NCBI GenBank assembly: GCA_040755755.1 | Contig: JBFLZW010000019.1 | Location: 1,774-65,773 of the forward strand | DNA from: a bacterium | GTDB lineage: Bacteria > SZUA-182 > DTGQ01 | Length of the DNA: 64,000 bases | Reading direction: 5' to 3' | In this document: in pieces, positions 709 through 28,825 of the stretch | Layout of the letters: each line of letters opens with the position of its first letter | Position numbering within the stretch: the stretch's first letter is position 1 | The notes under the pieces: model-generated | Told to the model about the DNA's origin: nothing | The model's database searches: none | Seen by the model: only the letters and a program-made list of their open reading frames with translations | Made by a program: the position numbers and the translations under genes

Positions 709-1122
709 GCAAATGATTTACCATTATTTCACCTTTGTGCCTTTCTTGTACCTGCTGACACATGGCATTTATCTTTAGTAACTGTTGCTAACAACAATTG
801 CTAATCCCTGGTCAATCTTCCCTGTCCACCAGCTCGATTCATTTAGTAACAATTTGTTTCTCATATTGTTTTACGATCTCATCCATTCTGGCATATCTCT
901 TGCCTATACAGAGGGAAAGATTATAAAAAGTTATAATCTGCGGGCCGAAGGGGGGTGCAAGGAGAGATGGCCATTATTTTAGGGATCTTATTAAGTAGGC
1001 GTAGGTGGTGTTTTGTTCTCAGGCAATATGGATTTTAAAATCCAGGAGTAAATTTTCAACACCCTGTTCCGATCATGAGGACAGATGATTCAAAGGAGAA
1101 AAAATTGTTCTTCCCAGCACAT
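709..1122. other. No recognisable gene
   Basis: This stretch carries only short open frames without ribosome-binding sites. On the minus strand near 866-930 a frame gives GKRYARMDEIVKQYEKQIVTK-like sequence ending in a stop, which could be the tail of another decayed gene, but it is too short to assign. Confidence 0.4.
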
Positions 1123-1236
1123 ACTTAGGAGTGGCCGCCATAAATAGTAAGCCAGTGTGATAGAGGACCGTAAATCTTGGTGATACGGCTCTAAAAAAAT
1201 AAAACTTACAGGCGGTTATGGCGGCCAGTACTAAGT
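1123..1236. repeat. 114-bp element bounded by 21-bp inverted repeats
   Basis: The arms at 1123-1143 and 1216-1236 are inverted copies that match at 18 of 21 positions. The three differing bases are contiguous (GAG against TAC after ACTTAG), and the shared part is TGGCCGCCATAA. The 72-bp centre is AT-rich and non-coding. No flanking target duplication is visible. It could be a MITE-like element or a structured RNA; it lacks the core sites expected of an integron attC. Confidence 0.7.
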
Positions 1237-1473
1237 GCCTTCAGAGATATGACATGAAGGCAGCAGGTGTCTGGCGTGTCAGCCAAGCCCTCGATTTTTA
1301 GGTAATCCCCAGCTCAAGTAAATCCCCAGGTATTTCAAAGTTTCAAGAATAAACATCCTGAAGTACCCTTAAAAAAGGGATAACTGTCGGTAATATCTAT
1401 GAATTGGAAAAATCCCGGATAATTTGCAAATCCCAGTCAGACAATAAAGCTCTCCAGATAGAAGGTTCTCCAG
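1237..1473. other. Intergenic DNA, nothing recognised
   Basis: Low-complexity, AT-rich spacer without a supported frame, promoter or RNA gene. It runs from the inverted-repeat element to the hairpin at the next start codon. Confidence 0.4.
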
Positions 1474-1517
1474 CATAAGGCTCCCCAATGGAGAAATAGA
1501 AAGGAATAAGCCTTATG
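1474..1517 (+). promoter_or_regulatory. Hairpin that sequesters a start codon
   Basis: CATAAGGCT (1474-1482) pairs perfectly with AGCCTTATG (1509-1517). The last three bases are the ATG of the next gene, and the probable ribosome-binding site AAAGGA lies in the 26-nt loop. Folded mRNA would bury the start codon. Whether this regulates or is fortuitous is not known. Confidence 0.4.
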
Positions 1518-2096
1518 AGTGAGCACGAGCAGCTTTTTATTTTTGTCAACGACAGTATTGATAAGACAGATGTTCCCCATTTCCCTTTTTTTGAGAGAAA
1601 GATTGATAATGACCATCACCCCCACCCAGACTCCCCTGCCACAGGGGCTCCCTGCATCAAAGGGGAGGAGAATAGTGGAGGCTCTCCTCTCAGGAGGGAG
1701 AAGTGGAAGGGATACTCCTCTCCGAGATTGGGAACATCTGTTGACAGGAGCATATTGCCGCAGCAGAAAAGCCCCCCCTTCATCAAGGTTTCCCTGATGG
1801 ATGGGAAAGGGAGGACTGTCGATGAGGTTTTGGAAAACGCCCTGTTGCCTGACAAGAACTTCAAGGACTTTTCGGGATTATTCATTGGGCTCACCAGGGC
1901 CGAGCGAATTGGTGGTAAAAGGATTCTGATTATAACCGACAACATCCTCCTTCAAATCCTGATTAAAAGTGAAGCGGCAGGGGCATGGAAGGATAGTTAT
2001 GGATTTCATGCTGACATTAAAAGGCTGATGAATAACTTTGAAGAGGTAAAAGTTGAGATCACCGGTTGGGAAAAAGAACATCGGAAGGCCGCATAA
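1515..2096 (+). CDS. RNase H-fold-like protein carrying an inserted dispersed repeat
   Basis: The C-terminal half (from about residue 90) follows the layout of bacterial RNase HI-like proteins: a strand, then a helix with GLTRAERIGGKRI, a strand with IITDN matching the second catalytic Asp strand, then a helix and a final strand with VEITGWEKEHRKA resembling the end of the fold. The N-terminal FIFVNDS could be the first strand with an Asp. The conserved Glu of the helix appears missing (KDFSGLF), so catalysis is doubtful. Residues of about 34-52 are encoded by a dispersed repeat that also occurs in a non-coding region at 37.65 kb, so this gene has absorbed an insertion in frame. The product may be a folded relic. 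Confidence 0.45.
   Translation: MSEHEQLFIFVNDSIDKTDVPHFPFFERKIDNDHHPHPDSPATGAPCIKGEENSGGSPLRREKWKGYSSPRLGTSVDRSILPQQKSPPFIKVSLMDGKGRTVDEVLENALLPDKNFKDFSGLFIGLTRAERIGGKRILIITDNILLQILIKSEAAGAWKDSYGFHADIKRLMNNFEEVKVEITGWEKEHRKAA
1616..1670 (+). repeat. Dispersed GC-rich palindromic repeat, copy 1 (in gene)
   Basis: About 55 bp with the core CTCCCCTGCCACAGGGGCTC. An inverted copy with identical core lies at 37651-37706 outside any gene. The core contains CCCCTG...CAGGGG, so it can form a small hairpin. Here it is read through in frame. Confidence 0.75.
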
Positions 2097-2135
2097 AGCG
2101 ACCTTTATCAGTAATCCGTCTTCAGTCTTTATACT

Positions 2136-2180
2136 CTGACCACTGATCACTGACCACTGACCACTGATCACTGGCCACTC
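2136..2180 (+). repeat. CTGACCACTGA-family repeat
   Basis: A run of degenerate 10-11 bp units of the type CACTGACCACTGATCACTGG. The same family recurs at 17474-17504, 43300-43325, 49089-49105 and 51623-51650, always in gaps between genes, most often just upstream of a start codon. Confidence 0.8.
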
Positions 2181-2205
2181 ATTCAGAAGGAGGTATTGTA
2201 TTACC

Positions 2206-2826
2206 ATGGATAACAAGCCAGGAAGTTTAACCAAAATATCAACGGTTAATGAGCCGGAAAGTCCGGCAAGAAAAGACAGGGGAACAGAAACGGCGGGAGT
2301 ACGATTCAGCATTTCATCCAAAAGCATAGCCAAAAAGCTGCTGCGCCTGAACATGTGGTTTATCATGGTTGGTGTTCTGGTTTTGGCCATAGCCTCCATT
2401 GTTACTTTTACCATGGGCATCGTGCGCTTTCTCCTGTTCCTGGCAAGAGACATCCATTGGCATCATTTTTCGGTGCCGCACAATTTTAATGCCGTGATCT
2501 GTGAGATCCTGGAAATCAATTTAATCGCCGTAATCCTTTTTATTTCAGCTATCGGGCTCTATCTTCTCTTTTGGAAAGATATTCGGGTTCCCGGATGGCT
2601 GACCATCAACGATGTCAATCAATTGAAGGAGAAACTGGTTGGCATTCTTATTACTGTTATGGGAGTAACCTTTCTCGAACATATCCTGGAATGGGCTGAC
2701 CCGCAGGGAACGCTTATGTTTGGAGTGGCTATTGCCCTGATCATCACCACGCTGGTATTTTACATCAAAATCATGGTCTCGGAGGGGGGAGAGGGAGGGA
2801 ATGAAAAGAATGCACACCACGGATAG
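2206..2826 (+). CDS. YqhA-type (UPF0114) inner-membrane protein
   Basis: The first 45 residues are polar and probably cytoplasmic, and at least four hydrophobic segments follow (about 48-75, 100-125, 140-163 and 170-190). The stretch PGWLTINDVNQLKEKLVGI followed by FLEHILEW is the pattern of the YqhA/UPF0114 family, whose role is not established. A strong AAGGAGGT site 11 nt upstream supports the start. The 3' end overlaps the next gene by 26 bp, so this membrane protein is probably made with the large propeller-ATPase and may anchor it. Family assignment is fairly sure; the functional link is inference. Confidence 0.75.
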   Translation: MDNKPGSLTKISTVNEPESPARKDRGTETAGVRFSISSKSIAKKLLRLNMWFIMVGVLVLAIASIVTFTMGIVRFLLFLARDIHWHHFSVPHNFNAVICEILEINLIAVILFISAIGLYLLFWKDIRVPGWLTINDVNQLKEKLVGILITVMGVTFLEHILEWADPQGTLMFGVAIALIITTLVFYIKIMVSEGGEGGNEKNAHHG

Positions 2827-5800
2827 GGAATATGATGCCTGCCCAGGTAAAGAACCCCGACAGGCGTTGAAAGACCTTTTACGCCTGGCTGAGACCAAGC
2901 TCGATCTCGTCTGGCGTTTTGAAGCAGGAGAGGAGATTACCAGCCTCTGCGTTGCTCATTATACGAGACACGATAAGCCGCAAAATCAGGTTATCGTCGG
3001 CTCGAAAGACAGTTGTGTTTATTCGCTGTCCATTGATAAGGAGCTGTTATGGAAATTCTGTGCCCAGGATGAAATCCTGGCTCTGTGCACCTCGGACCTG
3101 ACCCGTGACGGTTCAGAGGAAATCGTCGTTGGATCAAAGGACCATCACATCTATATCCTCGATCCGGAAGGCGGCCTGATAAAGGATTACCTGTGTGACG
3201 GCCCGGTGAAGGCGGTGACCGTAGCCAGAGGCGAGGGAGAGGACTCTATCGTCATCGCCGGATCTTCGAACGGCTATATCTACTTTTTCGGTTATGGGGA
3301 TGGGACTCAGTGGAAATATTATTGTGGTGACAACTGCCGGGTCACCGGTCTGTGCGTAGCCTCTCTCGGAGAGAATAAGGAGAGTGTGGTAGCCATTACC
3401 AACCGGGGGGATGTCATTATCCTGGATTATCAGGAGAAAAAGGTTCTGCGCCGGGTCAAAAAGCCCGGTTCGCTCTATGCTGTCATAGCCCAGGATATCG
3501 ATAATGACGGAACCAATGAAATCATCGTCAGTTCCGATTCCTGCTGTGTCTATGCCCTGAATAACTATGGCCGGGAGAAATGGCGGTTCAGGACCAAGGA
3601 TTCCGTCTACTCGATTCACTGCTGCGACATTGATATTGACAACCGTTTCGAAGTTGTTATCGGCACCCGCGATGATTACGTGTACGTGCTCGATGCCGAA
3701 GGAAGATACGAGTGGAAATACAAGACCGACCATAATGTCTGGAGTATCTACAGTGCACCCTTCTCACAGCAGATGAAATTCTGCGATCTCTTTGCCGGTT
3801 TGAGCAACCGGATGGTCTATTACTACCGGCTGCGCGACTGGCGGCATTATGCCAACAAGATCGATGAGTTCTATACCAAACTGCTGAGTACCGGCAAAGA
3901 GGAATGGGAGGTTCTGGAAAGCTTCAGCAGGGATGAGGATGAGTACCTTCGGCAGTTTGCCGCTCAAAAGCTGGTGACCCTGGCCAATGGCCATTCCCTG
4001 AACCAGAATATCCTGCTCTGTTTGCGGAACATGTTGAAAGATCACTCTCCCAAGGTCAGGGCCGCTGCGGTGAAGAGCATGGTCAGCCTGTCGGAATATA
4101 ACCCTGACCTGGTGGTCAGGATACTCTCGACCGAGACCTTCGAGCAGGATGAACAAGTGCGTCTCAAGATTATTCAGGGAATGTCTTCCATAGCCCTGAA
4201 CGCATCCACCAGGAGAGGGGATATCTTTAATCATCTCCAGAGATTGAGCCAGCAGTGGGAGCAGATCGACCGCAAGGCGATCATTAATCTTTTCGACGTT
4301 GCCCAGACGGAATTTATCACCGGCAATCTGAACGAAGCCCTGATCGATTTCCAGTTCCTGGCGGACCGGGGGATCGACCTTGTTTCGAAATATAAGACCG
4401 ACGGCTATGTCTGCTCGCTGACCTGCGGTGACCTGAACCAGGGCAGCAGCTCGATTATTGCCGTGGCTTCCCGGAACAACCATCTCTACATTTTCGATCA
4501 GCGGGGAAAGCTGAAATGGGACCGGTCAACGGAAACCTATGTCCAGGGAATCTTCATCGAGGATGTGGACAATGACGATCATCCTGAAGTCGTGGTCGGC
4601 GAGGCTAACGGGACCTTTCAGTTTTTCTCGGAAAATGGAGAGGAGAAGGGCAGATTTTGCTTTCCAAACCAGGTCAATGATTTTTACCCGGTCAAGGACA
4701 GGCGCGGAAAGGTCGATGGTCTGGTCATCGGAACCCAGGATGGCATGGTTTACTACCTTGATTCTTCCTGGCAGGAGAAGTGGCGCTTTCAGACCAGAAC
4801 CTGCGTTTTAAGCGTTTTTGCGGATGATATCGATCGCGACGGCTATCCGGAGATAGCTGTCAGCACCCTGCATGGGCATCTCTTTTTACTGGACCGCAAA
4901 GGAGGAGTGCGCTGGGAAAGAAATTTCCAAAGTGATATCAGGGCCATTAATTCATTGCGGGAAGAGGATGTCGATCTGATCATCGGCACCCGGAGCTGGA
5001 AGATATATGCCCTCGATGCCAGGGGAAATATCAAGTGGCTGCAATCCAGTGATCAGGTGATCAACAGGATCTGGGTATCGCAGATTCATGATGCCAAACG
5101 GATCATGGTCGCAACCCAGGGTGCCTCGCTCCTGGTTCTGGATGCCAGGGGAAACCGGGTTGGAAAAGTGGAGACCTTTGCCAACATTACCGCCCTTGCC
5201 TGTGCCGATATCAACCGTGACGGACAGAAGGAAATCATTCTGGGTTCCCAGGATGATCATGTCTATATTTATCAGTTCATCGATCGCCAGACAGTGGATG
5301 CCTACATTAAACGATGCAGGGAATTATCCGAGATCCTGGGGAAAAAATTATCCTTCGCCAGAAACGATATTCTGCGGCTCATCAAGGTCAACTTTGAAGG
5401 ACGGGATAGGAAGGACAAGGTTGTCCTGGTAGGCTACCTCGGTTCGGGGAAAACGAATATCCTCTGGCAGATCAGTTCCGGAGCTATCGGCGAGCGGTAT
5501 CTGCCGGTCTATATCAACCTCCACTATGCCAGGCTCGACAGTCTGGGAGATTTTATCTGGGATTTTGCGGAAAAAATCACCAAAGAGCTTTTCCGGAAAG
5601 GAATTTATCCTTCCTGCCCATCCAAACCGGATTTTTCCGACAATTGCCTGGAGGTGTTCCGGACCTTTTTCCGGGGCCTTTCAGCTCAACTGGAGGAGAA
5701 AATACTCCTGATCCTGTTCGACGATTTCGATTGTCTGCAAACCGAGGTTACCAGCGAGAATATCAGCCACGATGTCTTCCATCTCTTCGAGGAGATGATC

Positions 5801-8119
5801 GATACCGGCAAGTGCTATTTTGTCCTGACCGCTTCCTCGTATGACTTCGACCTCGAACGAAAGAGTGGAAATACCTTTCTGAGCAATGCCCTGATCAAGG
5901 ATGTTAACTTCGTTGACCGGTTCAGCGTCCAGCAGGAACTGTTCCGGCAACTGGGGGAGGATCTCGAAGACCGGGAGGAGGTGGTCAACAGGATCCTTGA
6001 AATTACCGGAAGCCATGCCCACTACCTTCAGATTGCCTTCAATATCATTTCAGCCTATCTTGACAGGACCAGGAAGAACCGTCTGACCAACAAGGACTGG
6101 GCCGATCTGTATTTCAGGATCATGGAGGCCATCGAGGCAGAGCTTCTCAATCCCTGGGAGACGTTCCTGGCCTGGGAAAAGGTGGTCCTCTCCTCTCTGG
6201 CCAGACTCAATCCCTACGGGGCAACCATCACGGATATCAAGAAGAACCTCGGCTTGTTCACTCCTCTGGTTTCCAGTCACCATCTGGCCAACGTCCTGAA
6301 GAACCTGACCAGAAAGTCCATCCTGAACGAAATATTCACTGACCGGGATATTCACTACAATTTTACGATCTCGGTTTTCCGTGACTGGATCAAGAAGAAG
6401 ACCAATCCCTTTCAGGTCATCAGCGAGAATGCCGAAGCCATCTTGCAGGATGTCCCCTTAAGGCTGTTTTATCATCAGCACCGCACCTGCCAGCACAGAA
6501 AACAGATGGATCTTTTCTTACAGACTATTGGCCTTGATTTCAAACAGTGGAAGGTTTTGGCAACCTTATCGCAGAAATGGGCCAAGCTGATTGACCGCAA
6601 GGGTGAAATCAATAAGACGGCCCTGGCCGATTTTGTCCGCTATTTCGCCAAATTATTGGGTTTTTCAGTCAACGAGATTATCGAGTATCCCAAACTTTCC
6701 TGTTTCCGCTTCGACACACCGGCCCTTCGTCTCAAAAAGCTGGCTGGTATGATCCTGGCTGTTCCTCTGACCTGCAAGCCCGACGAAACTGACTTTCAGA
6801 CCCTGATCGGCGTGATTGCCAACCTCGATGCAGCCCCGAATACCTTTATGGTCCTCGAACTGGAAGAAACCGGCATTTTCGAGAAACTGGTCGCCAACTC
6901 CAAGCTCGACCTTGTTCTTCTGGATCAGGAGCGGCTCAAGAGCATCTTTCTGGCCACCAGCAACTATCTCCAGGCACTCATCGATGATGTCATCCTGCAC
7001 TATGTTGATTTTGTCGATCTCTCGCCCTATGAGACCATGGGGCCGGTGGACAGCATGTTTTTCGGCCGTCTCGAAGAAATCAAGACCATGAGGCAATTGT
7101 CGCACAAAAGCTTTGCCATTATCGGGTCCCGGCAGCTCGGCAAGACCTCTCTGATGCTGAAAGTCCGTAATCTCATCTGCCACGATACCAAAATCAAGAC
7201 CCTTTTTCTGGATTGCAGCACCTATTATGATCCTCTTACCCTGTGCCAGGCCATTATCGATGGCATCTGCCATGAACGAAAGGCGGTTATCGACAGCCTG
7301 GCTGATTTCAAGAGAATCATTCATGAAATTTGCCAGAAAGAGGTCAAGCTGGCCCTTTTCCTGGATGAAATCGACACCCTCTTGTCTATCGACAAGGAGC
7401 AGAATGAATTGCTGTTCAAGACCTTTCGGGCACTGTCACAGGAAAATGCCATCAGCCTGATCGTGGCCGGGTATGAAGAACTGTCCATCAGGACCAAGGA
7501 CATCAAATCACCCCTGTTCAATTATCTTGAGCTTATCAGGCTTTCTTCACTGGACAAGCGGGCAGCCGCTCAACTGATTACCGAGCCGATCAAGGAGCTG
7601 GGGATCCGCCTCCAGGACGAAAAGGCCCTGGTCGAAGAGATCTGCGAGATCAGCTCCTGTTTTCCCAACCTTATCCAGTTCATCTGCAAACGGCTGATCC
7701 AACTGATCGCTTCTCAAAAGCGCAGGGTGATCTACCCGACGGATCTGGCCCAGGTAAAGAGGGATCCGGACTTTCAGGATTACCTGCTCAGCAGATTTTT
7801 TACCAATCTTACTCCTCTGGGTAAAATCATTACCCTGCTTCTGGCAGGAAGACAGGAGATGCCCGCTTCTTTGATTGATGAAAAGCTGCGGCAAAATAAT
7901 ATCTATTTATCGATGCTGGAATTATCCGAAGAAATTGACCGGCTGATTATTGCCTCGGTTTTTTCCCGGACAAAGCAGGGTCTGCGGTTCAGCCTGCCCT
8001 ATTTCTCGCAGGTTCTTGCCCAGAACATGGAAAAGGAACTTTTATTGAAACAACTTTTCAGGGAGGTACATAATGGAAAACACGATTCCCTTCAAGTACA
8101 CCGGTCCGTTGGATCCTGA
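2801..8119 (+). CDS. Giant beta-propeller / HEAT / beta-propeller / dual P-loop ATPase
   Basis: A 1772-residue soluble protein. Residues of about 30-350 form a propeller of PQQ/FG-GAP-like repeats with D-I-D-x-D-x-x-x-E-I/V blades (DIDNDGTNEIIV is one). Residues of about 365-470 are HEAT-like helices, then a helical linker. A second propeller spans about 527-840, again with DVDNDDHPEVVVG-type motifs. The first NTPase has Walker A GYLGSGKTN (about 877) and Walker B ILFDDFD (about 971). The second has SRQLGKTSL (about 1442) and LFLDEIDTL (about 1519), followed by winged-helix-like sequence. The second module resembles AAA-like STAND ATPases and the neighbouring gene. No signal peptide is seen. 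It sits between a membrane protein and another ATPase, overlapping both. I infer a sensing or scaffold NTPase; the architecture is not one I recognise as characterised. Confidence 0.85.
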   Translation: MKRMHTTDREYDACPGKEPRQALKDLLRLAETKLDLVWRFEAGEEITSLCVAHYTRHDKPQNQVIVGSKDSCVYSLSIDKELLWKFCAQDEILALCTSDLTRDGSEEIVVGSKDHHIYILDPEGGLIKDYLCDGPVKAVTVARGEGEDSIVIAGSSNGYIYFFGYGDGTQWKYYCGDNCRVTGLCVASLGENKESVVAITNRGDVIILDYQEKKVLRRVKKPGSLYAVIAQDIDNDGTNEIIVSSDSCCVYALNNYGREKWRFRTKDSVYSIHCCDIDIDNRFEVVIGTRDDYVYVLDAEGRYEWKYKTDHNVWSIYSAPFSQQMKFCDLFAGLSNRMVYYYRLRDWRHYANKIDEFYTKLLSTGKEEWEVLESFSRDEDEYLRQFAAQKLVTLANGHSLNQNILLCLRNMLKDHSPKVRAAAVKSMVSLSEYNPDLVVRILSTETFEQDEQVRLKIIQGMSSIALNASTRRGDIFNHLQRLSQQWEQIDRKAIINLFDVAQTEFITGNLNEALIDFQFLADRGIDLVSKYKTDGYVCSLTCGDLNQGSSSIIAVASRNNHLYIFDQRGKLKWDRSTETYVQGIFIEDVDNDDHPEVVVGEANGTFQFFSENGEEKGRFCFPNQVNDFYPVKDRRGKVDGLVIGTQDGMVYYLDSSWQEKWRFQTRTCVLSVFADDIDRDGYPEIAVSTLHGHLFLLDRKGGVRWERNFQSDIRAINSLREEDVDLIIGTRSWKIYALDARGNIKWLQSSDQVINRIWVSQIHDAKRIMVATQGASLLVLDARGNRVGKVETFANITALACADINRDGQKEIILGSQDDHVYIYQFIDRQTVDAYIKRCRELSEILGKKLSFARNDILRLIKVNFEGRDRKDKVVLVGYLGSGKTNILWQISSGAIGERYLPVYINLHYARLDSLGDFIWDFAEKITKELFRKGIYPSCPSKPDFSDNCLEVFRTFFRGLSAQLEEKILLILFDDFDCLQTEVTSENISHDVFHLFEEMIDTGKCYFVLTASSYDFDLERKSGNTFLSNALIKDVNFVDRFSVQQELFRQLGEDLEDREEVVNRILEITGSHAHYLQIAFNIISAYLDRTRKNRLTNKDWADLYFRIMEAIEAELLNPWETFLAWEKVVLSSLARLNPYGATITDIKKNLGLFTPLVSSHHLANVLKNLTRKSILNEIFTDRDIHYNFTISVFRDWIKKKTNPFQVISENAEAILQDVPLRLFYHQHRTCQHRKQMDLFLQTIGLDFKQWKVLATLSQKWAKLIDRKGEINKTALADFVRYFAKLLGFSVNEIIEYPKLSCFRFDTPALRLKKLAGMILAVPLTCKPDETDFQTLIGVIANLDAAPNTFMVLELEETGIFEKLVANSKLDLVLLDQERLKSIFLATSNYLQALIDDVILHYVDFVDLSPYETMGPVDSMFFGRLEEIKTMRQLSHKSFAIIGSRQLGKTSLMLKVRNLICHDTKIKTLFLDCSTYYDPLTLCQAIIDGICHERKAVIDSLADFKRIIHEICQKEVKLALFLDEIDTLLSIDKEQNELLFKTFRALSQENAISLIVAGYEELSIRTKDIKSPLFNYLELIRLSSLDKRAAAQLITEPIKELGIRLQDEKALVEEICEISSCFPNLIQFICKRLIQLIASQKRRVIYPTDLAQVKRDPDFQDYLLSRFFTNLTPLGKIITLLLAGRQEMPASLIDEKLRQNNIYLSMLELSEEIDRLIIASVFSRTKQGLRFSLPYFSQVLAQNMEKELLLKQLFREVHNGKHDSLQVHRSVGS

Positions 8120-9233
8120 GTACGACGGCCTGATCAGCATCACCCGGCAGGATGAGCTGACCGAGATGATCAAAGGGGTGAGCAATCATACCTATTATGC
8201 TCTGGTCGGACCGCGGCAGACAGGAAAAACGACCCTTCTTTTCCAGCTTATGCAGGAAATTGCCACCAGTTTACCCGGTTTTCAGGGGCTTTACCTGACC
8301 CTGGAGGATCTGGTCAAGGTCAAATACCAGGACTTTTACAAAAACCTTGCCCGCAAGATCATCAGCTCACTTTCAAACCGATATCAGATCCAGCCAGCCT
8401 CGCTCAGGGAGCAATACAAACAGGTCGAAACCAACCTGGACCTGAAGGATTTTCTCCTTGATTTAGCCAGGGCCAGGCTGGGGCCGCAGAGTTCGGATGA
8501 ATGTATCGAATTCGAAGCCAGAGAGCATAAGGGAGTAAAGTTCGTCCTCCTGATCGATGAGATTGACGCCATTCCCCATGATATCATGATCGAATTTGTC
8601 AAAACCGTCCGGTCCATTTTTATCGAGCGGCTCTCGGTAGCCGGTTTCAAGGCTTACACTATGGTCCTGTGCGGATCGGCTGATCTTGCCTCTTTGACCT
8701 ATGGCAAAACCTCGCCGTTTAATATCAGCAAGGTCATTTATCTGCGAGATTTCACCTTTGAGGAGATCCGGGAGTGGACTAGCCGGATATTCCACCATTA
8801 CCAGATCTCGCAGCCTGAATCCTTTGCCCGGCGGTTGTTCGACGAGACCATGGGACATCCCTACCTCACCCAGATGCTCTGCTTCAGGATTTTCAAGCGT
8901 CTTTGGCAGGAGGACCGTCATGAGGTCACCCAGGACGATTTTCAGGAGGTTGACCAGATTATTACCGGAGGGGACATTAATCTCCTTACTACCCTGGAAA
9001 GGATCAAGGGAGATGAAATACTGAAGGAGATGACCTTGAAGATTTTACGGGGTGAACCCATCCGGTATTCACGGACCCATGACATCATCTATCATCTTGA
9101 GCTGGCGGGAGCCATCCGGCGAAACAACGAATATTGCCAGATAAGAAACCTCATCTATGAAAAATTTTTAAAACAGCATTTTAATCTCATCGAGCCCGGC
9201 CCATCGTTAGCCAGGGCTGCGATCGGGATGTAA
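8073..9233 (+). CDS. AAA-like (PF14516-type) STAND ATPase
   Basis: 386 residues. Walker A is GPRQTGKTTL at about 45-54 and Walker B is FVLLIDEIDAI at about 157-167. A C-terminal winged-helix-like stretch (about 300-375) ends with YCQIRNLIYEKFL, typical of the AAA-like family in which a small WH domain closes the ATPase. The start has a good AGGGAGGT site 7 nt upstream and lies 47 bp inside the preceding gene, in another frame, so the two are probably translated together. Its ATPase is similar to the second ATPase of the giant protein, and the two may form a mixed oligomer (inference). Confidence 0.85.
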   Translation: MENTIPFKYTGPLDPEYDGLISITRQDELTEMIKGVSNHTYYALVGPRQTGKTTLLFQLMQEIATSLPGFQGLYLTLEDLVKVKYQDFYKNLARKIISSLSNRYQIQPASLREQYKQVETNLDLKDFLLDLARARLGPQSSDECIEFEAREHKGVKFVLLIDEIDAIPHDIMIEFVKTVRSIFIERLSVAGFKAYTMVLCGSADLASLTYGKTSPFNISKVIYLRDFTFEEIREWTSRIFHHYQISQPESFARRLFDETMGHPYLTQMLCFRIFKRLWQEDRHEVTQDDFQEVDQIITGGDINLLTTLERIKGDEILKEMTLKILRGEPIRYSRTHDIIYHLELAGAIRRNNEYCQIRNLIYEKFLKQHFNLIEPGPSLARAAIGM

Positions 9234-9264
9234 GCTCTCCAGGGAAGAGGAGGAAAAAGGACGC

Positions 9265-10569
9265 ATGAACATAGATCAGAGCATGACAGGCTCCTCATCA
9301 CAGGTCACAACAGATTATATTCCTCTCCGGGAACCGATTGATCTCAGAGCAGGGAGGATAGCTTCGAATGGGGAATCCTCTCTGCGCATTCTCCTGGTTG
9401 ACGATGAGGAAATCGTCCACCAGACCCTGGGACCATACCTTCGGGACTGCGGGCACCATGTGGAAAATGCCTGGGAAGGCAGCACTGCTTTGGAGTTGAT
9501 CGAGGCCAAAGAGTATGACCTTGCTCTTGTCGATATCAGAATGCCGGGCATGGACGGTCTCTCGGTGCTGTCGGCCATGGGGGAGGTCCGCCCTGAACTG
9601 TCTGCGGTCATTATTACCGGGCACGGAAACATGGAAACCGTCATTCAGGCCCTGAGACTGGGGGCGGCGGATTTTCTCACTAAACCGGTCAAATTGCTTG
9701 AGCTGGATGCAGTGCTGGAAAAGTCGATGCGGATCCGCTACCTGCGTCAGGGCCAGCGTCGGTTGCGGGAAACCATCAGGGGCATGCAGGCCTCGGAGGA
9801 GATCCGCCTCGGAAACCGCTATCTGGTTGGAGTCAGCCAGGCCATTGACGAGGTGCGCAGGCAGATTCATCTGGCAGTCAAGGCCCGGTGCGAGATCATT
9901 CTGATCAGCGGAGAGACCGGCACCGGCAAGGAGATTGCCGCCCGGGAGATCCACTTCCGGAGCGCAGGCGACGACCGGCCCTTTATCGCCGTAAACTGTC
10001 CGACCCTGCCTGAATCCCTCGTTGAGAGCGAGCTGTTTGGCCATGTCAAGGGCGCATTCTCCGGTGCTGCCGCGGACAAGGCAGGCTATTTCGAGCTGGC
10101 CGAGGGTGGCACCCTCTTTCTGGATGAAATCTCAGACCTCAGCCCGCAAGTCCAGGCCAGGCTCCTTCGGGTGCTGGAGGCCCGAAAGCTGCGGCGGATC
10201 GGAGGATCGAAGGAAACCGGCATTAATGTCCGGGTGATCGCCTCGACCAGTATGCCCCTGGAGGAGCTGATAGTTTCACCTCGGTTTCGGAGGGACTTTT
10301 TCTACCGCCTGAATGTATTTACCATCAAAATCCTGCCCCTCCGGGAACGCTGCCCGGATATCATCCCCCTGGCCGAGCATTTCCTGTCAACCTACCGGGC
10401 GAGCCGAAGCCTTCGCATCAGCGGCTTTTCGCAGGAGGCAAAGGATATGCTGGTTAGCTACAGCTTTCCCGGTAATGCCAGGGAGCTTCGCAATATCGTC
10501 GAGCGGGCAGCGATACTGTGCCGGTCAGGGCTGATCGAGCCAAAACACCTTGGGCTGCCGGAGAGCTAG
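9265..10569 (+). CDS. NtrC-family sigma-54 activator without DNA-binding domain
   Basis: 434 residues. A receiver domain (about 40-155) has acidic pocket DD46-47, phospho-acceptor Asp90 in LVDIRMPG and Lys140 in LTKP. The AAA+ sigma-54 interaction domain (about 184-425) has Walker A GETGTGK (216-222), a GAFTGA loop in the variant form GAFSGA (263-268), Walker B FLDE and arginine fingers in FRRDFFYRL. The protein stops right after the AAA+ lid (PKHLGLPES), so the usual C-terminal Fis-type helix-turn-helix is absent. It may act from solution or be recruited by a partner. It follows the ATPase gene by 31 bp and precedes a Spy/ZraP-like gene, recalling the ZraR/ZraP arrangement; no cognate kinase is adjacent. 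Confidence 0.9.
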   Translation: MNIDQSMTGSSSQVTTDYIPLREPIDLRAGRIASNGESSLRILLVDDEEIVHQTLGPYLRDCGHHVENAWEGSTALELIEAKEYDLALVDIRMPGMDGLSVLSAMGEVRPELSAVIITGHGNMETVIQALRLGAADFLTKPVKLLELDAVLEKSMRIRYLRQGQRRLRETIRGMQASEEIRLGNRYLVGVSQAIDEVRRQIHLAVKARCEIILISGETGTGKEIAAREIHFRSAGDDRPFIAVNCPTLPESLVESELFGHVKGAFSGAAADKAGYFELAEGGTLFLDEISDLSPQVQARLLRVLEARKLRRIGGSKETGINVRVIASTSMPLEELIVSPRFRRDFFYRLNVFTIKILPLRERCPDIIPLAEHFLSTYRASRSLRISGFSQEAKDMLVSYSFPGNARELRNIVERAAILCRSGLIEPKHLGLPES

Positions 10570-10701
10570 AGTTTCGGGTAAAATTTACACTCACAGGTTA
10601 TACAGTCACGGATCGATCTGTACCGTAAATTCATTTGAAAACCGTATGTCAAGGGTGAATACCATCAATACACCTGCAAACCGTGTGAGGAGTGAAAAAG
10701 T

Positions 10702-11217
10702 ATGACTAAAAAAATCGGATTATTCAACTCACTGAGGAGCAGCAGGAGCAGCTTTTGCGCCTGGCTGATTCCAGAGGCCATCCCATTATCAACACCCCCG
10801 GCGCTGGAAATCATTTGTATGGGGAATTGCCATCCTCTTTTCCGGTATGATCGTCGGTGCAGGCATATCCTTAACTATATGGGGCATGCGATGCTGTTTC
10901 AGGCCCTTCACTCCGGGAATAAAATGGCCGAACATATTACCAGACGGATCGCATGGAAAGTTGATCTCACACCGCAGCAGCGCAAGCAGGTGGAAATCAT
11001 CGTTCGTACAGGGGTGGCCGGATTCAGAGAGATTATCGACTCTGTCTACCTGCAGGTCGAAGAGCAGTTCGAATTACTTCACCAGGAAGTGAATTCTTTG
11101 CTCACCGAGGAGCAGAAGGTGAAGTGGGAGAAGCATTATAAAAAGATGAAAGACAAGCTCAATCGTCATAGGCCAGGCCCTTGGAATTCGGAAAACATTG
11201 ATGCGCACACGAGGTAA
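10702..11217 (+). pseudogene. Spy/ZraP-like periplasmic protein broken by three homopolymer frameshifts
   Basis: The coherent product is spread over three frames. Adding one base in each of A7 (10708-10714), C5 (10795-10799) and G4 (10881-10884) gives one 172-residue protein: a cytoplasmic head with LTEEQQEQLLRLADSRG, a membrane anchor (WGIAILFSGMIVGAGISL), and a C-terminal helical domain with KVDLTPQQRKQ and SLLTEEQK, the paired LTxxQ motifs of Spy/CpxP/ZraP. Those proteins are periplasmic chaperones or metal-stress sensors. As written, only the C-terminal domain from about residue 62 is correctly framed from the ATG at 10702. Three same-direction single-base losses in homopolymers suggest sequencing error as much as real decay. 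Confidence 0.7.
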
Positions 11218-11247
11218 ATAGGATCGCATCTCCGTCGTCTCGTCTCC

Positions 11248-11279
11248 GGGGTCGGATCAAGAAATCGTATTGTTTTATT
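11248..11279 (+). repeat. GGGTCGGA dispersed repeat, copy A
   Basis: The sequence GGGTCGGATCAAGAAATCGT followed by ATTGTTTTATT recurs with few changes at 22824-22854, and its first 25 bp recur at 48794-48818. All three copies lie 20-50 bp beyond the stop of a plus-strand gene and have the same orientation. Confidence 0.75.
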
Positions 11280-11293
11280 AATCAGCTTAAACC

Positions 11294-11567
11294 GAATGGC
11301 ACTTACATAAGCCAAGCTTATAATATAGAGAGGACACAAAGCACACAGGGAAAAAAGATCTCCCGCAGAGACGCAGAGACGCAGAGAACAACCAATCCGG
11401 CAAGGTCCTGATGAAAGTCGGGATATATCGATGTGTCAACGGCCTGGAAGCAAGCAAAAAGTAAAAAGGCACAAGGAGGAACTTATTTTACTTTTACTTT
11501 TCAATGATATCCTCTGCGTCTCAGCGTCTCTGCGGGAGAATTACTAATTCTTATGTAAGTGCCATTC
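11294..11567. mobile_element. 274-bp MITE with 18-bp terminal inverted repeats and 10-bp target duplication
   Basis: The ends are perfect inverted copies: GAATGGCACTTACATAAG (11294-11311) and CTTATGTAAGTGCCATTC (11550-11567). The element is flanked by the direct repeat AGCTTAAACC (11284-11293 and 11568-11577), a clean 10-bp target-site duplication. Inside, CTCCCGCAGAGACGCAGAG-type sequence near 11360 is inverted near 11515 with one mismatch. No transposase frame is present, so it is non-autonomous. A 10-bp duplication fits IS4-type transposases, but the helper is not in the window. Confidence 0.85.
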
Positions 11568-11577
11568 AGCTTAAACC

Positions 11578-12087
11578 ACATACTGATGTAAAAATTTTAC
11601 ACCATTCACATATATTTCTCAATATAATAAAGTTATTCCTGAAAATCGTCGGCTTCGTATCTTCAAATGTCACATCTGCTTGACAGGAGAGGCTCATTGC
11701 AGGTATTATGAGGATTCACGGCCAGAGTTCCATGAATGGCTAATCCCCGGATACTTCTTCTCATGTCTTCGCCCGGCATAATGAGCACAAGGGTATCTTC
11801 GGGGATGGAAAAAACTACCGGCCGTTTTCGTGGATTACCGAATCTATTTCTCGATCTTAGCCCATTTCTCAATCTTAGCAAGGAAGAGATGGTCGATTGG
11901 TTTTACCTTGAGGCTCATGTCTGCGTACTGATGAGCAATCATGAGTATCTGCCTGCCTGCACCGGAATCGCTAATCTGTTGAGGTGGTAGTACAGAGGTC
12001 TGGCATCAATTGTACGGATTCAATCGCTGAGAAGGTATAACCCGCCCTTTTTTCCAGGAGTGCAGGTATGCAACCCGGAAATAACCC
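11578..12087. other. Gap holding the RAYT relic and otherwise empty
   Basis: Apart from the transposase relic, no gene is supported. An AT-rich stretch at 11590-11640 follows the MITE. No clear promoter hexamers were found for the 12195 gene. Confidence 0.35.
11736..11990 (+). pseudogene. Degenerate REP-associated (RAYT/Y1) transposase fragment
   Basis: The end of this 84-codon frame reads HVCVLMSNHEYLPACTGIANL, close to the HAYVLMxNHYHLLLETPEANL region of REP-associated tyrosine transposases, in which the HUH metal-binding histidines lie. Here the second His of the HxH-type motif has changed (NHEYL), and the regions before and after do not align. I read it as a decayed transposase core. The REP-like palindrome at 23257-23299 could be a relic of the same family. 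Confidence 0.4.
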
Positions 12088-12108
12088 AAAATCCCCTGAA
12101 GGGATTTT
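12088..12108. terminator. Terminator-like perfect hairpin
   Basis: AAAATCCC, a 5-nt loop, then GGGATTTT. The perfect 8-bp stem with an A/T outer half would act as a weak intrinsic terminator in either direction. Confidence 0.45.
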
Positions 12109-12148
12109 GAGAGAGTTACATCATGAGCCTGATACAGGGATGAGGGGC

Positions 12149-12187
12149 GGACCTTATTCAGGATATTGCTATCCTGTAATAAGGTCC
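12149..12187 (+). promoter_or_regulatory. Long hairpin directly upstream of the 12195 gene
   Basis: GGACCTTAT (12149-12157) pairs with ATAAGGTCC (12179-12187), and the inner CAGGATA/TATCCTG pairing closes on a TTGC loop, giving 16 bp with one small bulge. The right arm ends 7 nt before the ATG at 12195 and contains the only purine-rich stretch that could bind the ribosome. A leader regulatory structure is plausible; a transposon relic is the alternative. Confidence 0.5.
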
Positions 12188-12194
12188 TGAGCAT

Positions 12195-14009
12195 ATGAAC
12201 AGTTTGGAGCATACCTTCTATATTCCGGTCATGGGGACCGGCCATTCCGTCGATACACCGATACGGCTAGCTCCTCTCGGTATTTCCTCGGTCATATCAC
12301 TTGTCGATGACATCCTCCTGGAAAAAGTGCGAAAGTTCTACAGCGAGAAGTTCGGGCTGAGTTATACCCCCCTCGGAAGGAGCGAGGTGGACGGGAGGGC
12401 GAAAAGGATTACCGCCTACCTTGATACTGTATGGCAAATTGTCCAGATCAAAATGGCGGCCATCAAACAGCAGCCGTTTTTCGCAGCCAATGACAAGAGC
12501 AGGTATTTTGAGCTCCTTCCCGATGAAAGCCCGCTGAAAAAAGAATATGATAGACTGCTCGGCATGGATGAAGGACCGGAGAGAGATGCTCTGGCAAACG
12601 ATTTGACCGGCAGGATGCGTCCCGGATCCATAGATGTCAATATCATGGTCAAACTTGACCGGACGGTTTACGACGCCGAGGGCAAGAGCCTCGGCGAGGA
12701 ATTCACCGATGCCAAAGCCGCGCTCAGAGGCTACGCCAACAGCGCTCTGGAATCGTGTATCGTATTCTCAGCCGGAATCAACCAGAAATTATTCAATTAT
12801 CTTACCCGGTTCCAGGATTTTTACCGGGACAAGACAGGCTGGATCAGGAAAAAAATCATCGTCAAGGTGAGCGACTTTCGCTCTGCCCTGATTCAGGGTA
12901 AATTCCTTGCCAAAAAGGGCCTGGAAATTTCCGAATTTCGCATCGAATCGGGCCTCAATTGCGGTGGTCACGCCTTCCCTTCCAATGGTAATCTGCTCCC
13001 GTGCCTTCTCCAGGAATTTAAGGATAAGCGGGAGCAACTGGCTGCGGAGTTTCTGCCGTTCATCCAGAAATATTACCGGAGTCAGGGATGGAAATATCCT
13101 GAGTCGGCAGTAAACGAAAAACCCCTCATCAGTGTGCAGGGCGGGATTGGGGTATTCGGCGAAGTCTGCAGGCTCAGGAAGGACTTCGGCATGGACATGA
13201 CAGGCTGGGCAAGCCCGTTTTTGCTGGTGCCTGAAGCCACTCCTGTCGATCATACCACCCGTGAGCTTCTGATCCGGGCCACAGAGGATGACTTTTATAT
13301 CAGTGATATTTCACCCCTCGGCGTACCCTTCAATACTATCCGCAGGACCGGATCGGAAGTATGGACCCGCGAAATGGCGGCCAGAGACACACCCGGCTCA
13401 CCCTGCTCGAAAGGCTGCCTGGTGTCCAACACCGAATTTACCGAAACACCCATTTGCCTGGCCTCCAGAACATACCAGACTCAAAAACTGGCCCAGATAG
13501 ACAGGATGGAAATTCCGGAGAAAGAAAAGGCACGGCTTCGCGCCAGGGTTGTCGAGAAGGCCTGTATTTGCGATCACCTGGGAAACGGGGCCCTGATCTC
13601 CCTGGGGATTGCCAAAGAACAGCATGCTCCCCAGGCTATCTGTCCAGGTCCCAATATCGTGTGGTTCAAGCGGCTGTATACACTCAAGGAAATGGTTGAC
13701 CACATTTATGGAAGAAGGCCTTCCCTGGTTCCATCCGAGCGCCCGCATATGTTTGCTCAGGAAATCGTCATGTACGTGGATTACTTTGAAAAACTCATCT
13801 CCAATCAGGATTGCACGGAAAAAGAGATCGCCTACCTGCAGGAATTCTATTATAATCTCGAACACGGCATGGACTTTTGCCTGGCTATTGCCCAAAATTC
13901 CCCTTACCCCGGAGAAAACCTGGCCTCTATTCCTCCCTGCGTAGAGCAGCAAAGAGCACGCCTCAGATCACTCTATGGCAAGGTTGAGAAAAAGATAAAT
14001 ATAGGGTGA
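12195..14009 (+). CDS. Uncharacterised 604-residue protein, TIM-barrel-like with Cys-rich C-terminal part
   Basis: I do not recognise a named family. The N-terminus (IPVMGTGHSVDTPIRLAPLG) looks like the first strand of a flavin-type TIM barrel. Residues of about 250-345 contain GLNCGGHAF and, later, SVQGGIGVFGEV then MTGWASPFLL, in the order seen for the GGH and GGI phosphate-binding segments of nitronate-monooxygenase-like enzymes. The C-terminal third is Cys-rich (SPCSKGC, TPICLAS, ACICDHLGNGAL, AICPGP) and may bind metal or an Fe-S cluster. There is no signal peptide or membrane segment. The gene stands alone; its start has only a weak ribosome-binding site beside a hairpin. Enzyme class is inference. 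Confidence 0.65.
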   Translation: MNSLEHTFYIPVMGTGHSVDTPIRLAPLGISSVISLVDDILLEKVRKFYSEKFGLSYTPLGRSEVDGRAKRITAYLDTVWQIVQIKMAAIKQQPFFAANDKSRYFELLPDESPLKKEYDRLLGMDEGPERDALANDLTGRMRPGSIDVNIMVKLDRTVYDAEGKSLGEEFTDAKAALRGYANSALESCIVFSAGINQKLFNYLTRFQDFYRDKTGWIRKKIIVKVSDFRSALIQGKFLAKKGLEISEFRIESGLNCGGHAFPSNGNLLPCLLQEFKDKREQLAAEFLPFIQKYYRSQGWKYPESAVNEKPLISVQGGIGVFGEVCRLRKDFGMDMTGWASPFLLVPEATPVDHTTRELLIRATEDDFYISDISPLGVPFNTIRRTGSEVWTREMAARDTPGSPCSKGCLVSNTEFTETPICLASRTYQTQKLAQIDRMEIPEKEKARLRARVVEKACICDHLGNGALISLGIAKEQHAPQAICPGPNIVWFKRLYTLKEMVDHIYGRRPSLVPSERPHMFAQEIVMYVDYFEKLISNQDCTEKEIAYLQEFYYNLEHGMDFCLAIAQNSPYPGENLASIPPCVEQQRARLRSLYGKVEKKINIG

Positions 14010-23807: not shown

Positions 23808-24749
23808 TCATTCTTCAAGGTCGATGATTTTCAAATCAAAGGGTTTTTTCTGACTATCTGAATCGACCACCACCTTTTGCATTTTGGTCATGGTCTGTTC
23901 CATGGTTTCCAGGAAAAGGCGGGAGGTTGTAACCTGCTCGCTGCCGTTGTATTGAGCGCACATCTCGATGAATCTCTGGGCATCTCCCTGGGCGTTATTG
24001 ATTTTCTCGTTCCGGTAGCTTTCAGCCTCACGGATGATTCGCTCGGCTTCTCCTCTGCTCTGGGGGATTTTCTCGTGCCGGTATCCTTCGGCCTCGTTGA
24101 TATACCGGTCCCGGTCCTGTCTGGCTGCGGCCACATCCTTGAAGGCATCGGCCACCTCCAGGGGCGGGTAGACATTCTGCAGGTTGATCGAGGCCAGTTG
24201 CACCCACCGTTTCCCCTGGCACAGCTCATCCAGCCTGCTTTGGGTATCAGCCAGGACGTCCCGCTGAATGGCTATCTTGCCGTTCCCTTTCAGCACATCG
24301 TCCACATTCATCCGGGCTACGGTTTTCGTCAGGCTGGACTTGGCCATATCCCTGATCAGGCTAGCCGGGTCATTGAATGCAAACAGGTAGTCAACCGGCT
24401 CAAGAATGGAATATTGCAGGACCATTTCCATCTTGATGATATTCCGGTCGCCGGTCAGGAATTCCCCCTGGGTCGGATTCGAGGCCCGGCCTATGGCCTG
24501 GTCGGCGAATTCAAACCCGACGCTGATCCGCTTTTTTTCCTGCGGCATGATCTTATCCACCCGCTCAATCGGGTACGGCCATCGGTAGTGCAATCCCGGA
24601 GCCACTCTGGCATTGACTACCCGGCCAAAGCGCCTCTTGATCCCCAATTCGTTCGTCGATACCAGGAACAGGCCGGACAGCAGGTAGAGAAGCCCGGCTA
24701 TGCCCAGAATCCATTTCGTCCATCTGGTTACAGTTTTTGTCGTGCTCAT
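23808..24749 (-). CDS. HflK-like SPFH/band-7 membrane protein
   Basis: 313 residues. One N-terminal anchor (about 12-32) is followed by an SPFH domain opening with ELGIKRRFGRVVNARVAPGLHYRWPYPIE. The C-terminal coiled coil carries repeated AEGYRHEKIPQSRGEAERI-type motifs and ends with IDLEE. HflK and HflC form a periplasmic cage around FtsH in E. coli. This protein has a conserved WPYPIE segment like the SPFH part of the fusion protein upstream, so the two are paralogues. It is encoded 17 bp after the HflC-like gene. Confidence 0.8.
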   Translation of the reverse strand: MSTTKTVTRWTKWILGIAGLLYLLSGLFLVSTNELGIKRRFGRVVNARVAPGLHYRWPYPIERVDKIMPQEKKRISVGFEFADQAIGRASNPTQGEFLTGDRNIIKMEMVLQYSILEPVDYLFAFNDPASLIRDMAKSSLTKTVARMNVDDVLKGNGKIAIQRDVLADTQSRLDELCQGKRWVQLASINLQNVYPPLEVADAFKDVAAARQDRDRYINEAEGYRHEKIPQSRGEAERIIREAESYRNEKINNAQGDAQRFIEMCAQYNGSEQVTTSRLFLETMEQTMTKMQKVVVDSDSQKKPFDLKIIDLEE

Positions 24750-24766: not shown

Positions 24767-25744
24767 CTACTTTTTGGCCAGGTTATCTGCTTTGGCAGCA
24801 CCGGCGGTTTGAGTGGCTTTGCTCCTGTTCTTACCAGAGCTTACGGTCCTGACAGCATCCTTCACCTGTCCTTCAGTCAGCAATTTGAACAGATCTGAAC
24901 CTGACGACAGAACCACCGTGGTTTTCTCATTCATGAATTTCTGATAGGCCTGGAGTGTTCGCAGGAACTTGTAAAAGTGGACGTTCTGCCCATAGGCATC
25001 ACCATAGATCCGGATCGCTTCGGCATCGCCTTCTCCTTTGGTGATTTCAGCGGTCCGGTAGGCCTCGGAGAGGATCGTTCTGGTCTCCTTGTCCGTGGCT
25101 GCCCGGATCTTCAGGGCCTCCTCTTCTCCCTCGGCCCGGTACTGTTTGGCGATTCTCTGCCGCTCGGCCCGCATCCGGTCAAAAACAGACTGCTTGTTCT
25201 GCTGGGGAAGAATCAATTGTTTGAGCTTTACGCTGGCAATCTTGATACTGTAATCCTTCTCGGCGCGCTTTCTGCAATTATCGAGGACCTGCTGAAAAAT
25301 CTCGGTGATCTTCATCTCTCCCGGTTTGGTGGAAACCAGAGAGGACAGGTCATACCGGCCGAGAGCAGCCGACACTTCGGAATACACCAGGTCATCGAGA
25401 TGGGTTTGCGCTTTGGCAACATCATTGACGGTAACGTAGAAGTCAAGAGGATCGATGAGCTTCCAGCAGACGAAATTGTCCACCACCACGTTTTTCTTGT
25501 CCCGCGTCAGGTACTCCTGGGGTATCGGGTTGTAAATCAACATCCTTTTGTCCAGGGTGATGGTGGTATGAATGGGTGACTTGAAGTGCAATCCGGCCTT
25601 TGAAACCACGCGGGTCGGCTTTCCGAACAGGGTGACAATCTTGTACTGGGTTTCATCAACCACAAACATGCTTAAAAAGATTAAAACTAAGGATACGAGA
25701 ATCAGGAATGAAACGGTGATCTTCTTTCTTGTTTTCTTTTCCAT
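24767..25744 (-). CDS. HflC-like SPFH/band-7 membrane protein
   Basis: About 325 residues. The GGAGGG site suits the ATG at 25744 (the ATG at 25750 is too close to it). One N-terminal anchor (about 9-27) is followed by an SPFH domain: TQYKIVTLFGKPTRVVSKAG, then HTTITLDKRMLIYNPIPQEYL and KKNVVVDNFVCWKI-type strands, as in HflC. Then come a long helix with MRAERQRIAKQYRAEGEEEA and the GEGDAEAIRIYGDAYG turn seen in HflC. It is part of the operon with a metal ATPase-SPFH fusion and an HflK-like protein. Confidence 0.85.
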   Translation of the reverse strand: MEKKTRKKITVSFLILVSLVLIFLSMFVVDETQYKIVTLFGKPTRVVSKAGLHFKSPIHTTITLDKRMLIYNPIPQEYLTRDKKNVVVDNFVCWKLIDPLDFYVTVNDVAKAQTHLDDLVYSEVSAALGRYDLSSLVSTKPGEMKITEIFQQVLDNCRKRAEKDYSIKIASVKLKQLILPQQNKQSVFDRMRAERQRIAKQYRAEGEEEALKIRAATDKETRTILSEAYRTAEITKGEGDAEAIRIYGDAYGQNVHFYKFLRTLQAYQKFMNEKTTVVLSSGSDLFKLLTEGQVKDAVRTVSSGKNRSKATQTAGAAKADNLAKK

Positions 25745-25765
25745 TGACATCCCTCCATGAGGAAA

Positions 25766-28700: not shown

Positions 28701-28825
28701 AAGCCAATAATGGCAGTGAAAATAACATAATTCAGAGAGACACCTTCTTCTTCCTCTTCTATCTCGTCTTCCAATTTCGGATCATCGGCCAAGACCTGAT
28801 GATTCTTCTCCTTAGCTGTGCTCAT
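25766..28825 (-). CDS. P1B-type metal ATPase fused to an HflK-like SPFH domain
   Basis: 1019 residues. Residues of about 1-650 are a heavy-metal-translocating P-type ATPase: actuator TGES (about 192), membrane CPC in ACPCALVLATPTA (about 287), DKTGTLT (about 330), GDGINDAPS (about 530). The nucleotide-domain His motif reads SEHLL instead of the usual SEHP. There is no N-terminal HMA metal-binding domain; an acidic stretch (EDEIEEEEEG) is there instead. A linker leads to another membrane anchor (about 676-695), then an SPFH domain (QRGVVQRFGRKITDNLQPGLHLF) and coiled coil to the C-terminus. A CPC motif suits Cu, Zn or Cd. The single frame is continuous across the junction, so this is a true fusion as sequenced. 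It leads an operon with HflC-like and HflK-like genes. Confidence 0.9.
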   Translation of the reverse strand: MSTAKEKNHQVLADDPKLEDEIEEEEEGVSLNYVIFTAIIGLLLLLNWLGIFRTVLGIDTSIILTLIGGYKIFFGALESLFRRKISVDLAIALAAIAALSIRQYLAAAEVIFIMLVGEALESFAVDRTRGAIKKLIDLSPKKARVIREGKEQEIEVEKLTANDHVIVRPGERIPVDGEVLCGRSSVDQSTITGESIPVEKSTGSKVYSGTINQLGSLEIRADKVGEDTVLSRIIHLVEEAQAQKAPIQKVADRYAKFFVPVIILVAAIAYLITRDLVRSVSILIIACPCALVLATPTAIFAGIGRMAREGILVKGGAYLEAMGRVNLIALDKTGTLTQGRPRIVSIISFQGYSEQQVLSLAATADQYSEHLLASIIVEEARKKSLDIGHCDKFQVKPGLGVEAVHQGNTVLVGNRKLLEENGLEFDPAALKVLDEVEHKGQTMILVSCGQKVAGAIAMQDEIRPETVETLRKLKKLGIRLTLLTGDNELVARQIARQAGIDEYAAHLLPDGKVAKIRQWQEEGYTVAMVGDGINDAPSLSTANVGIAMGNIGSDIAIESADMIFMADDLSRLENAVTIGRKTVRTIRQNILFFAVIFNALAVVAASTVAWVTPVVAAVVHQISSLLVVGNSLRLLSGKMKAILSGWASGLAGWWRHLVHDYLHHVWEAHKKPICNAALALVIVLYLASGLTMISPYQRGVVQRFGRKITDNLQPGLHLFFPWPIDKVTKVVRTVERVEVGFRRNKSVVSRVDQKTGQVVTAYEWDIQDRTGEYQKKSDESLVFTGDENFLEMDMVVKYVIRDPSNYLFKIRGFQDTTDLVRFCAQSAIREIVGRKGADNILTVDRSEIEAQVSTLLQRELDSLDAGLLVEGAYLQSVHPPIEVADAFRAVVNAHEEKSMLINLAEGYHNEQLPLARGKGEQNIRMAESYRDEITNRAEGEGQRFVSMCKNYDTFKDVTSVRLYLETVESVLPGMKKFILDEQRSGREELTVFGSKKIETLINNITREFFPRSKQQSLKP

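Follow-up and report, generated by a model that had tools for sequence, protein, structure and literature searches.

Results

Architecture and distribution

We analysed a 64,000-nucleotide stretch of bacterial DNA (the window; contig JBFLZW010000019.1, positions 1,774 to 65,773) and describe here the gene at 2801-8119 together with the partner gene that follows it, encoding a smaller STAND-type ATPase (Table 1). The larger product carries two beta-propellers flanking an alpha-solenoid, followed by two STAND ATPases, NTPase1 and NTPase2, apparently of separate origin. We tentatively read the locus as an NLR-like sensor/switch pair of the cytoplasm that resembles the published two-gene nSTAND2 systems and, as an analogy only, Apaf-1 with its domain order reversed. 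The module is narrowly distributed and unstudied, and looks related to switch systems for cell death or defence. It adds to the STAND switch systems a layout in which an N-terminal arm with two propellers is joined to two STAND modules of different origin, with a third STAND protein coupled to them.

The gene is a single intact frame from ATG to TGA (1772 amino acids) with a strong Shine-Dalgarno-like sequence immediately 5' of the ATG, and no transmembrane segments were found in the protein. Pfam detected propeller families at amino acids ~104-324 and ~586-843, HEAT repeats at 407-432/373-436, ATPase_2 at 870-1076 (E 2.7e-14) and AAA_22 at 1436-1561 (E 2.2e-10). An earlier note on this DNA had described the order propeller-HEAT-propeller-NTPase-NTPase in one chain, which is correct according to Pfam, AlphaFold2 and its retention in two full-length homologues. 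The domains listed in that note are present; it overlooked the winged helix after each NTPase, a domain of ~200 amino acids (about 1206-1405) between the NTPases, and the overlapping partner genes. The inter-NTPase domain is helical in its first part and has a low-confidence core in the model, and its last part is common to several other NTPase2-type proteins. We left it unnamed because of this low confidence and because Pfam gave no identity (best values 0.02-0.05, each in one of the three members, including RE_NgoBV).

The homologues (1757 and 1785 amino acids; 62% and 39% identity) align end to end with the window protein in the same domain order. Both are encoded in one metagenome-assembled genome (MAG) of the same family, G002, whose contigs are publicly available as CSMAG_150 under the name 'Pseudomonadota bacterium' (loci L030 and L031; module-bearing contigs of 31648 and 10279 bases). 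Since these two further open reading frames align throughout with all motifs kept, the layout is not a chance one. NTPase2 (73%/53% identity) and propeller 1 (72%/50%) are best conserved, and the solenoid (54%/28%) and propeller 2 (57%/32%) are among the least conserved parts.

The distribution of the module among genomes of the class is patchy. In the source genome (G000, 5.26 Mb) other proteins match the propeller part only, and with the NTPase region as query no second copy was found there. Neither the congener G001 nor G003-G008, the remaining class members searched, yielded a full-length copy, and none of the viral contigs held relatives. Across 84,980 species genomes, the scan recovered only the two full-length G002 loci and, from Streptomyces, two distant matches to NTPase2. 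One G002 copy has been duplicated in tandem, an extra truncated copy lying at the contig end directly 3' of its partner ATPase gene.

The Streptomyces proteins (L049 and L050, about 6000-12190) are ~2000 amino acids long and carry the same NTPase2-type module, with a gene of ~795 amino acids before each; AAA_22 is the sole Pfam match in the large L049 protein, for which PADLOC gave nothing. In G003 a WD40 array has an NTPase2-type STAND module fused at its C-terminus, in a protein of 1493 amino acids (L032, 803-5281).

Table 1. Features of the locus, in window positions (aa, amino acids; wHTH, winged helix-turn-helix)
Feature	Position	Strand	Basis
UPF0114 membrane protein, four predicted transmembrane segments; overlaps the large gene by 26 bases	2206..2826	+	Pfam, transmembrane prediction, homologue loci
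Whole gene: propeller-solenoid-propeller-NTPase1-wHTH-unrecognised domain-NTPase2-wHTH	2801..8119	+	Open reading frame, Pfam, motifs, homologue alignment, AlphaFold2
7-bladed beta-propeller 1, PQQ/FG-GAP-like blades, aa 34-344	2900..3832	+	Pfam, AlphaFold2
Alpha-solenoid with HEAT repeats, 10 helices, aa 347-523	3839..4369	+	Pfam, homologues, AlphaFold2
7-bladed beta-propeller 2, aa 525-826	4373..5278	+	Pfam, AlphaFold2, profile comparison
NTPase1, ATPase_2-type STAND, aa 851-1110 (Walker A 5432-5455, Walker B 5708-5725)	5351..6130	+	Pfam, motifs, tree
Winged-helix-like region after NTPase1, aa 1111-1205	6131..6415	+	hhalign NTPase1/NTPase2 alignment extends across the region
Unrecognised inter-NTPase domain, aa 1206-1405	6416..7015	+	Structure model, homologues, no Pfam identity
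NTPase2, AAA_22-type STAND with FFGR motif, aa 1406-1660 (Walker A 7124-7147, Walker B 7352-7369)	7016..7780	+	Pfam, motifs, model, tree
Winged-helix region after NTPase2, aa 1661-1755	7781..8065	+	Structure model and fold matches
Partner STAND-type ATPase (AAA_35), 386 aa	8073..9233	+	Pfam, profiles, tree, gene overlap
NtrC-type sigma-54 response regulator without C-terminal helix-turn-helix	9265..10569	+	Pfam, homologue in L030; 31 bases 3' of the partner ATPase gene

The propeller-solenoid arm

AlphaFold2 was run on amino acids 1-854 with three homologues (mean predicted local distance difference test score, pLDDT, 80; predicted template modelling score, pTM, 0.49). Both propellers are predicted to fold, each with seven blades by our reading of the strand list: propeller 1 comprises strands 46-344 with a closing strand at 34-41, and propeller 2 strands 537-826 with a closing strand at 525-532. 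The pTM is 0.49, and therefore the orientation between the domains of this arm is not fixed. A similar helix-strand lead-in precedes each propeller (RQALKDLLRLAETKLDLVW; NEALIDFQFLADRGIDLVS), in the homologues too, so that the final solenoid helix and the lead-in of propeller 2 resemble the lead-in of propeller 1. This likeness points to a unit of helix plus propeller that occurs twice, although a profile comparison between propellers 1 and 2 matched up their blades only and did not extend to the lead-ins.

Two NTPases of distinct origin

Judged by sequence and model, both NTPases are STAND/ORC-type AAA+ modules. Walker A (GYLGSGKT at 878-885 in NTPase1, GSRQLGKT at 1442-1449 in NTPase2) and Walker B (LILFDD at 970-975, ALFLDE at 1518-1523) are intact in both, as they are in the partner ATPase, in all homologues. 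The NTPase2 model best matched the archaeal STAND ATPases 2qen and 2fna and ORC/CDC6, and more weakly the plant NRC3; a mixed alignment that placed NTPase2-type relatives on NTPase1 was excluded from folding. The NTPase-lid-winged-helix order was seen by model in NTPase2, by alignment through the same region in NTPase1 and by profile only in the partner. The earlier note had assigned the two P-loops to different flavours, which was not borne out: both are G-x4-GK-T P-loops in homologous modules (hhalign 96.5%, 301 columns, 14% identity). NTPase1 lacks the hhGRE glycine (F-x-RN/RK) and the GxP proline (GSHAH, GCHAH, GCHIN) in all three homologues, while its relatives retain both. NTPase2 carries FFGR and CFPNLIQ, and the partner ATPase GHPYLTQ.

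The homology of the two NTPase-winged-helix modules would also be expected if they were tandem duplicates of one module, which we consider very improbable. In a tree of 25 rows NTPase1 clades with ATPases that form the C-terminal part of other sensor proteins (support 96/93) and NTPase2 with another set, and a single clade for both was rejected (p-AU, approximately unbiased test, 0.0006), to be read with caution given several long branches. By profile, NTPase2 is nearer to the partner ATPase than to NTPase1. The NTPases are thus not equal tandem duplicates, in line with the earlier note. Its proposal that two ancestral STAND-like genes were fused holds as far as the separate clades go, and fusion assembly fits because each module type is also found elsewhere without the other.

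The partner ATPase and its CHAT-fused paralogue

The partner gene directly follows and overlaps the large gene at all three loci (by 47 bases in the window, 14 and 11 bases in the others), with a good ribosome-binding site before it in the window. The partner ATPase is related by profile to NTPase2 (98.0%) and NTPase1 (97.0%). At E<1e-30 in ~290 genomes its subfamily is made up of the copies linked to the propeller gene at the three loci, a single fusion of CHAT to AAA_35 and a more remote group of four paralogues, all in the unrelated genome G047. The fusion, a 773-amino-acid protein of G002, is 53% identical to the L031 partner and groups with the three partners (support 100/100). CHAT is a caspase-like protease, and the window partner carries no fused effector. 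CHAT genes were found in 5/5 genomes of the order searched, and for this reason the presence of CHAT in a genome was not counted as evidence. Through its CHAT-fused cousin, the partner has a concrete connection to caspase-like proteases that can be put to the test.

Neighbouring genes and alternative functions

The UPF0114 gene overlaps the large gene upstream in the window and in L030. UPF0114 occurs in two of nine class genomes, exactly those with the module, and at the locus only. It is a candidate membrane effector or anchor; in the UPF0114/YqhA literature searched, no function bearing on the locus was found. The overlapping membrane gene and the well-conserved propeller 1 would also agree with a housekeeping scaffold, in which propellers and solenoid organise a stable membrane- or envelope-related complex with UPF0114 and the ATPases serve for assembly only. 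Foldseek with the N-terminal half returned tandem-propeller scaffold proteins, e.g. subunits of the small-subunit (SSU) processome and of intraflagellar transport (IFT), with Apaf-1 also listed, but at a template modelling (TM) score of about 0.3 this likeness is generic to propellers. The patchy occurrence, with nothing full-length in the congener or the remaining class members, also argues against a scaffold, and we regard it as quite unlikely.

The response regulator gene 3' of the partner has a 73% identical homologue in L030 (15269-16636), with a Fis-type helix-turn-helix (HTH), upstream of the module together with a PAS histidine kinase. No obvious HTH remnant was found in three forward frames past the stop of the window gene, and NtrC was not seen on the L031 contig. 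A flavodoxin-like gene stands beside both G002 copies (L030 14170-14649, L031 7405-7950); tblastn found no counterpart in the window. L030 has a -24/-12-like site with one mismatch in its upstream region (14887), and the window has another at 889, ~1.3 kb upstream; the shuffle fractions are 0.0065 and 0.012-0.024, respectively, among six regions tested. Because the count of such sites across the whole window is at chance level, they are suggestive only of sigma-54 control of the module.

These neighbours would also fit a regulatory module modelled on MalT-type STAND control of transcription, in which the propeller/STAND proteins sense a redox or intracellular state and, together with NtrC, govern transcription from sigma-54 promoters, with no cell-death output. 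The linked NtrC genes, the histidine kinase, the flavodoxin-like genes and the -24/-12-like sites favour this possibility. It is weakened by the missing HTH of the window NtrC, the L031 contig, the chance-level site count and the number of regions tested; the partner paralogue bears a protease rather than a DNA-binding domain, and winged helices in STAND proteins normally have a structural role. We consider such a regulatory function, the strongest of the rival readings, fairly unlikely.

No Rfam matches and no tRNA were found in the 64-kb window. On its reverse strand, a P-type cation ATPase is apparently fused to SPFH/Band_7 in a 1019-amino-acid frame (25766-28825), either genuinely or as an artefact of the assembly; two more Band_7 genes follow it (24767-25750 and 23808-24749).

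Discussion

Proposed function

We tentatively propose, at somewhat short of even likelihood, a soluble sensor/switch that forms a hetero-oligomer with its partner and acts through a separate effector. The propeller-solenoid-propeller arm would bind a protein or other ligand, and binding would shift the C-terminal STAND ATPases to another nucleotide state. NTPase2, which looks fully equipped, and the partner would be the active switches. NTPase1 keeps Walker A and B but not the other STAND motifs named above, so it probably exchanges nucleotide weakly or serves a structural role. The large protein and its translationally coupled partner ATPase would assemble into the hetero-oligomer. The output may pass through a separate effector, most likely UPF0114 here and a CHAT protease where the partner is fused to it (G002), and the purpose may be defence or cell death.

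As established ground for this proposal we take the architecture, motif conservation, gene overlap, distinct NTPase origins, the CHAT-fused partner paralogue and the pairs of sensor and STAND-effector genes described below. In favour of the sensor/switch pair we count the Walker motifs and partner overlap kept in 3/3 loci, the patchy presence, the tandem duplication in G002, the restriction of UPF0114, the small partner subfamily with its CHAT-AAA_35 member, the gene pairs of NTPase1 relatives and the published predicted systems in which both genes of a pair encode a STAND. Several observations weigh against it. The L031 copy has no UPF0114 gene next to it, neither protein at the locus carries a fused effector domain, and the CHAT fusion is encoded away from the module, in another genome. 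The linked NtrC genes and sigma-54-like sites are also compatible with a regulatory role. The other annotated window genes are metabolic and envelope genes with no defence island, and PADLOC on the window proteins gave no convincing defence family, only short weak matches around the P-loop. There are only three full-length members, from two MAGs; phages gave no match, and plasmids three weak NTPase2-type matches only.

Comparison with known systems

Apaf-1 also combines a STAND ATPase with two beta-propellers in one chain, and the partner's close relative bears the caspase-like CHAT. The present protein differs in its N-terminal propellers, the solenoid between them, blades that are PQQ/FG-GAP-like and not WD40, ATPase_2/AAA_22 in place of NB-ARC, the lack of a CARD and the two NTPases. 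Neither NB-ARC nor CARD was among the listed Pfam matches, and WD40-family models appeared only far below the cut-off. Because order, blade type and NTPase family differ, we rejected membership in an Apaf-1-like family, and the resemblance is a function-level analogy, not descent (TM about 0.3). An apoptosome-like assembly in reversed order, with the double-propeller double-STAND protein as sensor and the partner as STAND adaptor, using UPF0114 or CHAT in a death switch of three STAND ATPases, is an unlikely possibility.

Avs proteins share a STAND ATPase with a large repeat arm. They usually have an N-terminal effector and a C-terminal sensor (PMC10907252), whereas here the sensor-like arm is N-terminal, no effector is fused and PADLOC gave no convincing Avs match. 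The MoxR-vWA-beta-propeller ternary system (PMC7159879) was rejected: no vWA was found among the annotated neighbours (1515-14006), and the weak bpMoxR match is an NtrC protein.

Predicted mobile two-gene nSTAND2 counter-invader operons, in which each gene carries a STAND and one of the two STANDs is eroded, were described by Kaur et al. 2021 (eLife, PMC8195603, Fig. 6C). The present locus likewise consists of two neighbouring genes, both with a STAND core, and is predicted to give a hetero-multimer, and the eroded NTPase there is paralleled by the motif loss of NTPase1. It differs in the intact Walker motifs of all three NTPases, in the double-propeller arm and second NTPase of the first protein, and in having no GT4/HEPN effector. 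Nor does it belong to nSTAND2, the partner having no PF20702 match among those listed and the large protein none among its best 25. Among AAA_35 (PF14516) proteins, the partner matches the family and is close to the CHAT-AAA_35 fusion of G002, which has the fused effector that the window partner lacks.

ATPases of the NTPase1 clade also terminate sensor-like proteins in unrelated genomes, with a second STAND gene adjoining: GAFx3-ATPase with STAND-TIR (L033), TPR-ATPase with nSTAND2-kinase (L068) and CARDB-ATPase with EAD9-nSTAND2 (L066). A related layout, an NTPase2-type protein adjoining an ATPase-kinase, was detected in L072. The L033 genes (957-6097, G053) look like a possible defence pair, the TIR matching ThsB-type models. 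Separately, L067 (5068-13377, G250) holds four consecutive STAND-type ATPase genes (522, 564, 498 and 1166 amino acids, the last with TPRs). The pairs in L033, L066 and L068 share with the window locus an N-terminal sensor, a C-terminal ATPase of the NTPase1 clade and an adjacent STAND gene; they differ in the GAF, TPR or CARDB sensor, in the single NTPase and in partners of another clade than ours, which carry TIR, kinase or EAD9. Taken together, such pairs of sensor-ATPase and STAND-effector suggest a more general two-gene logic that is worth a survey.

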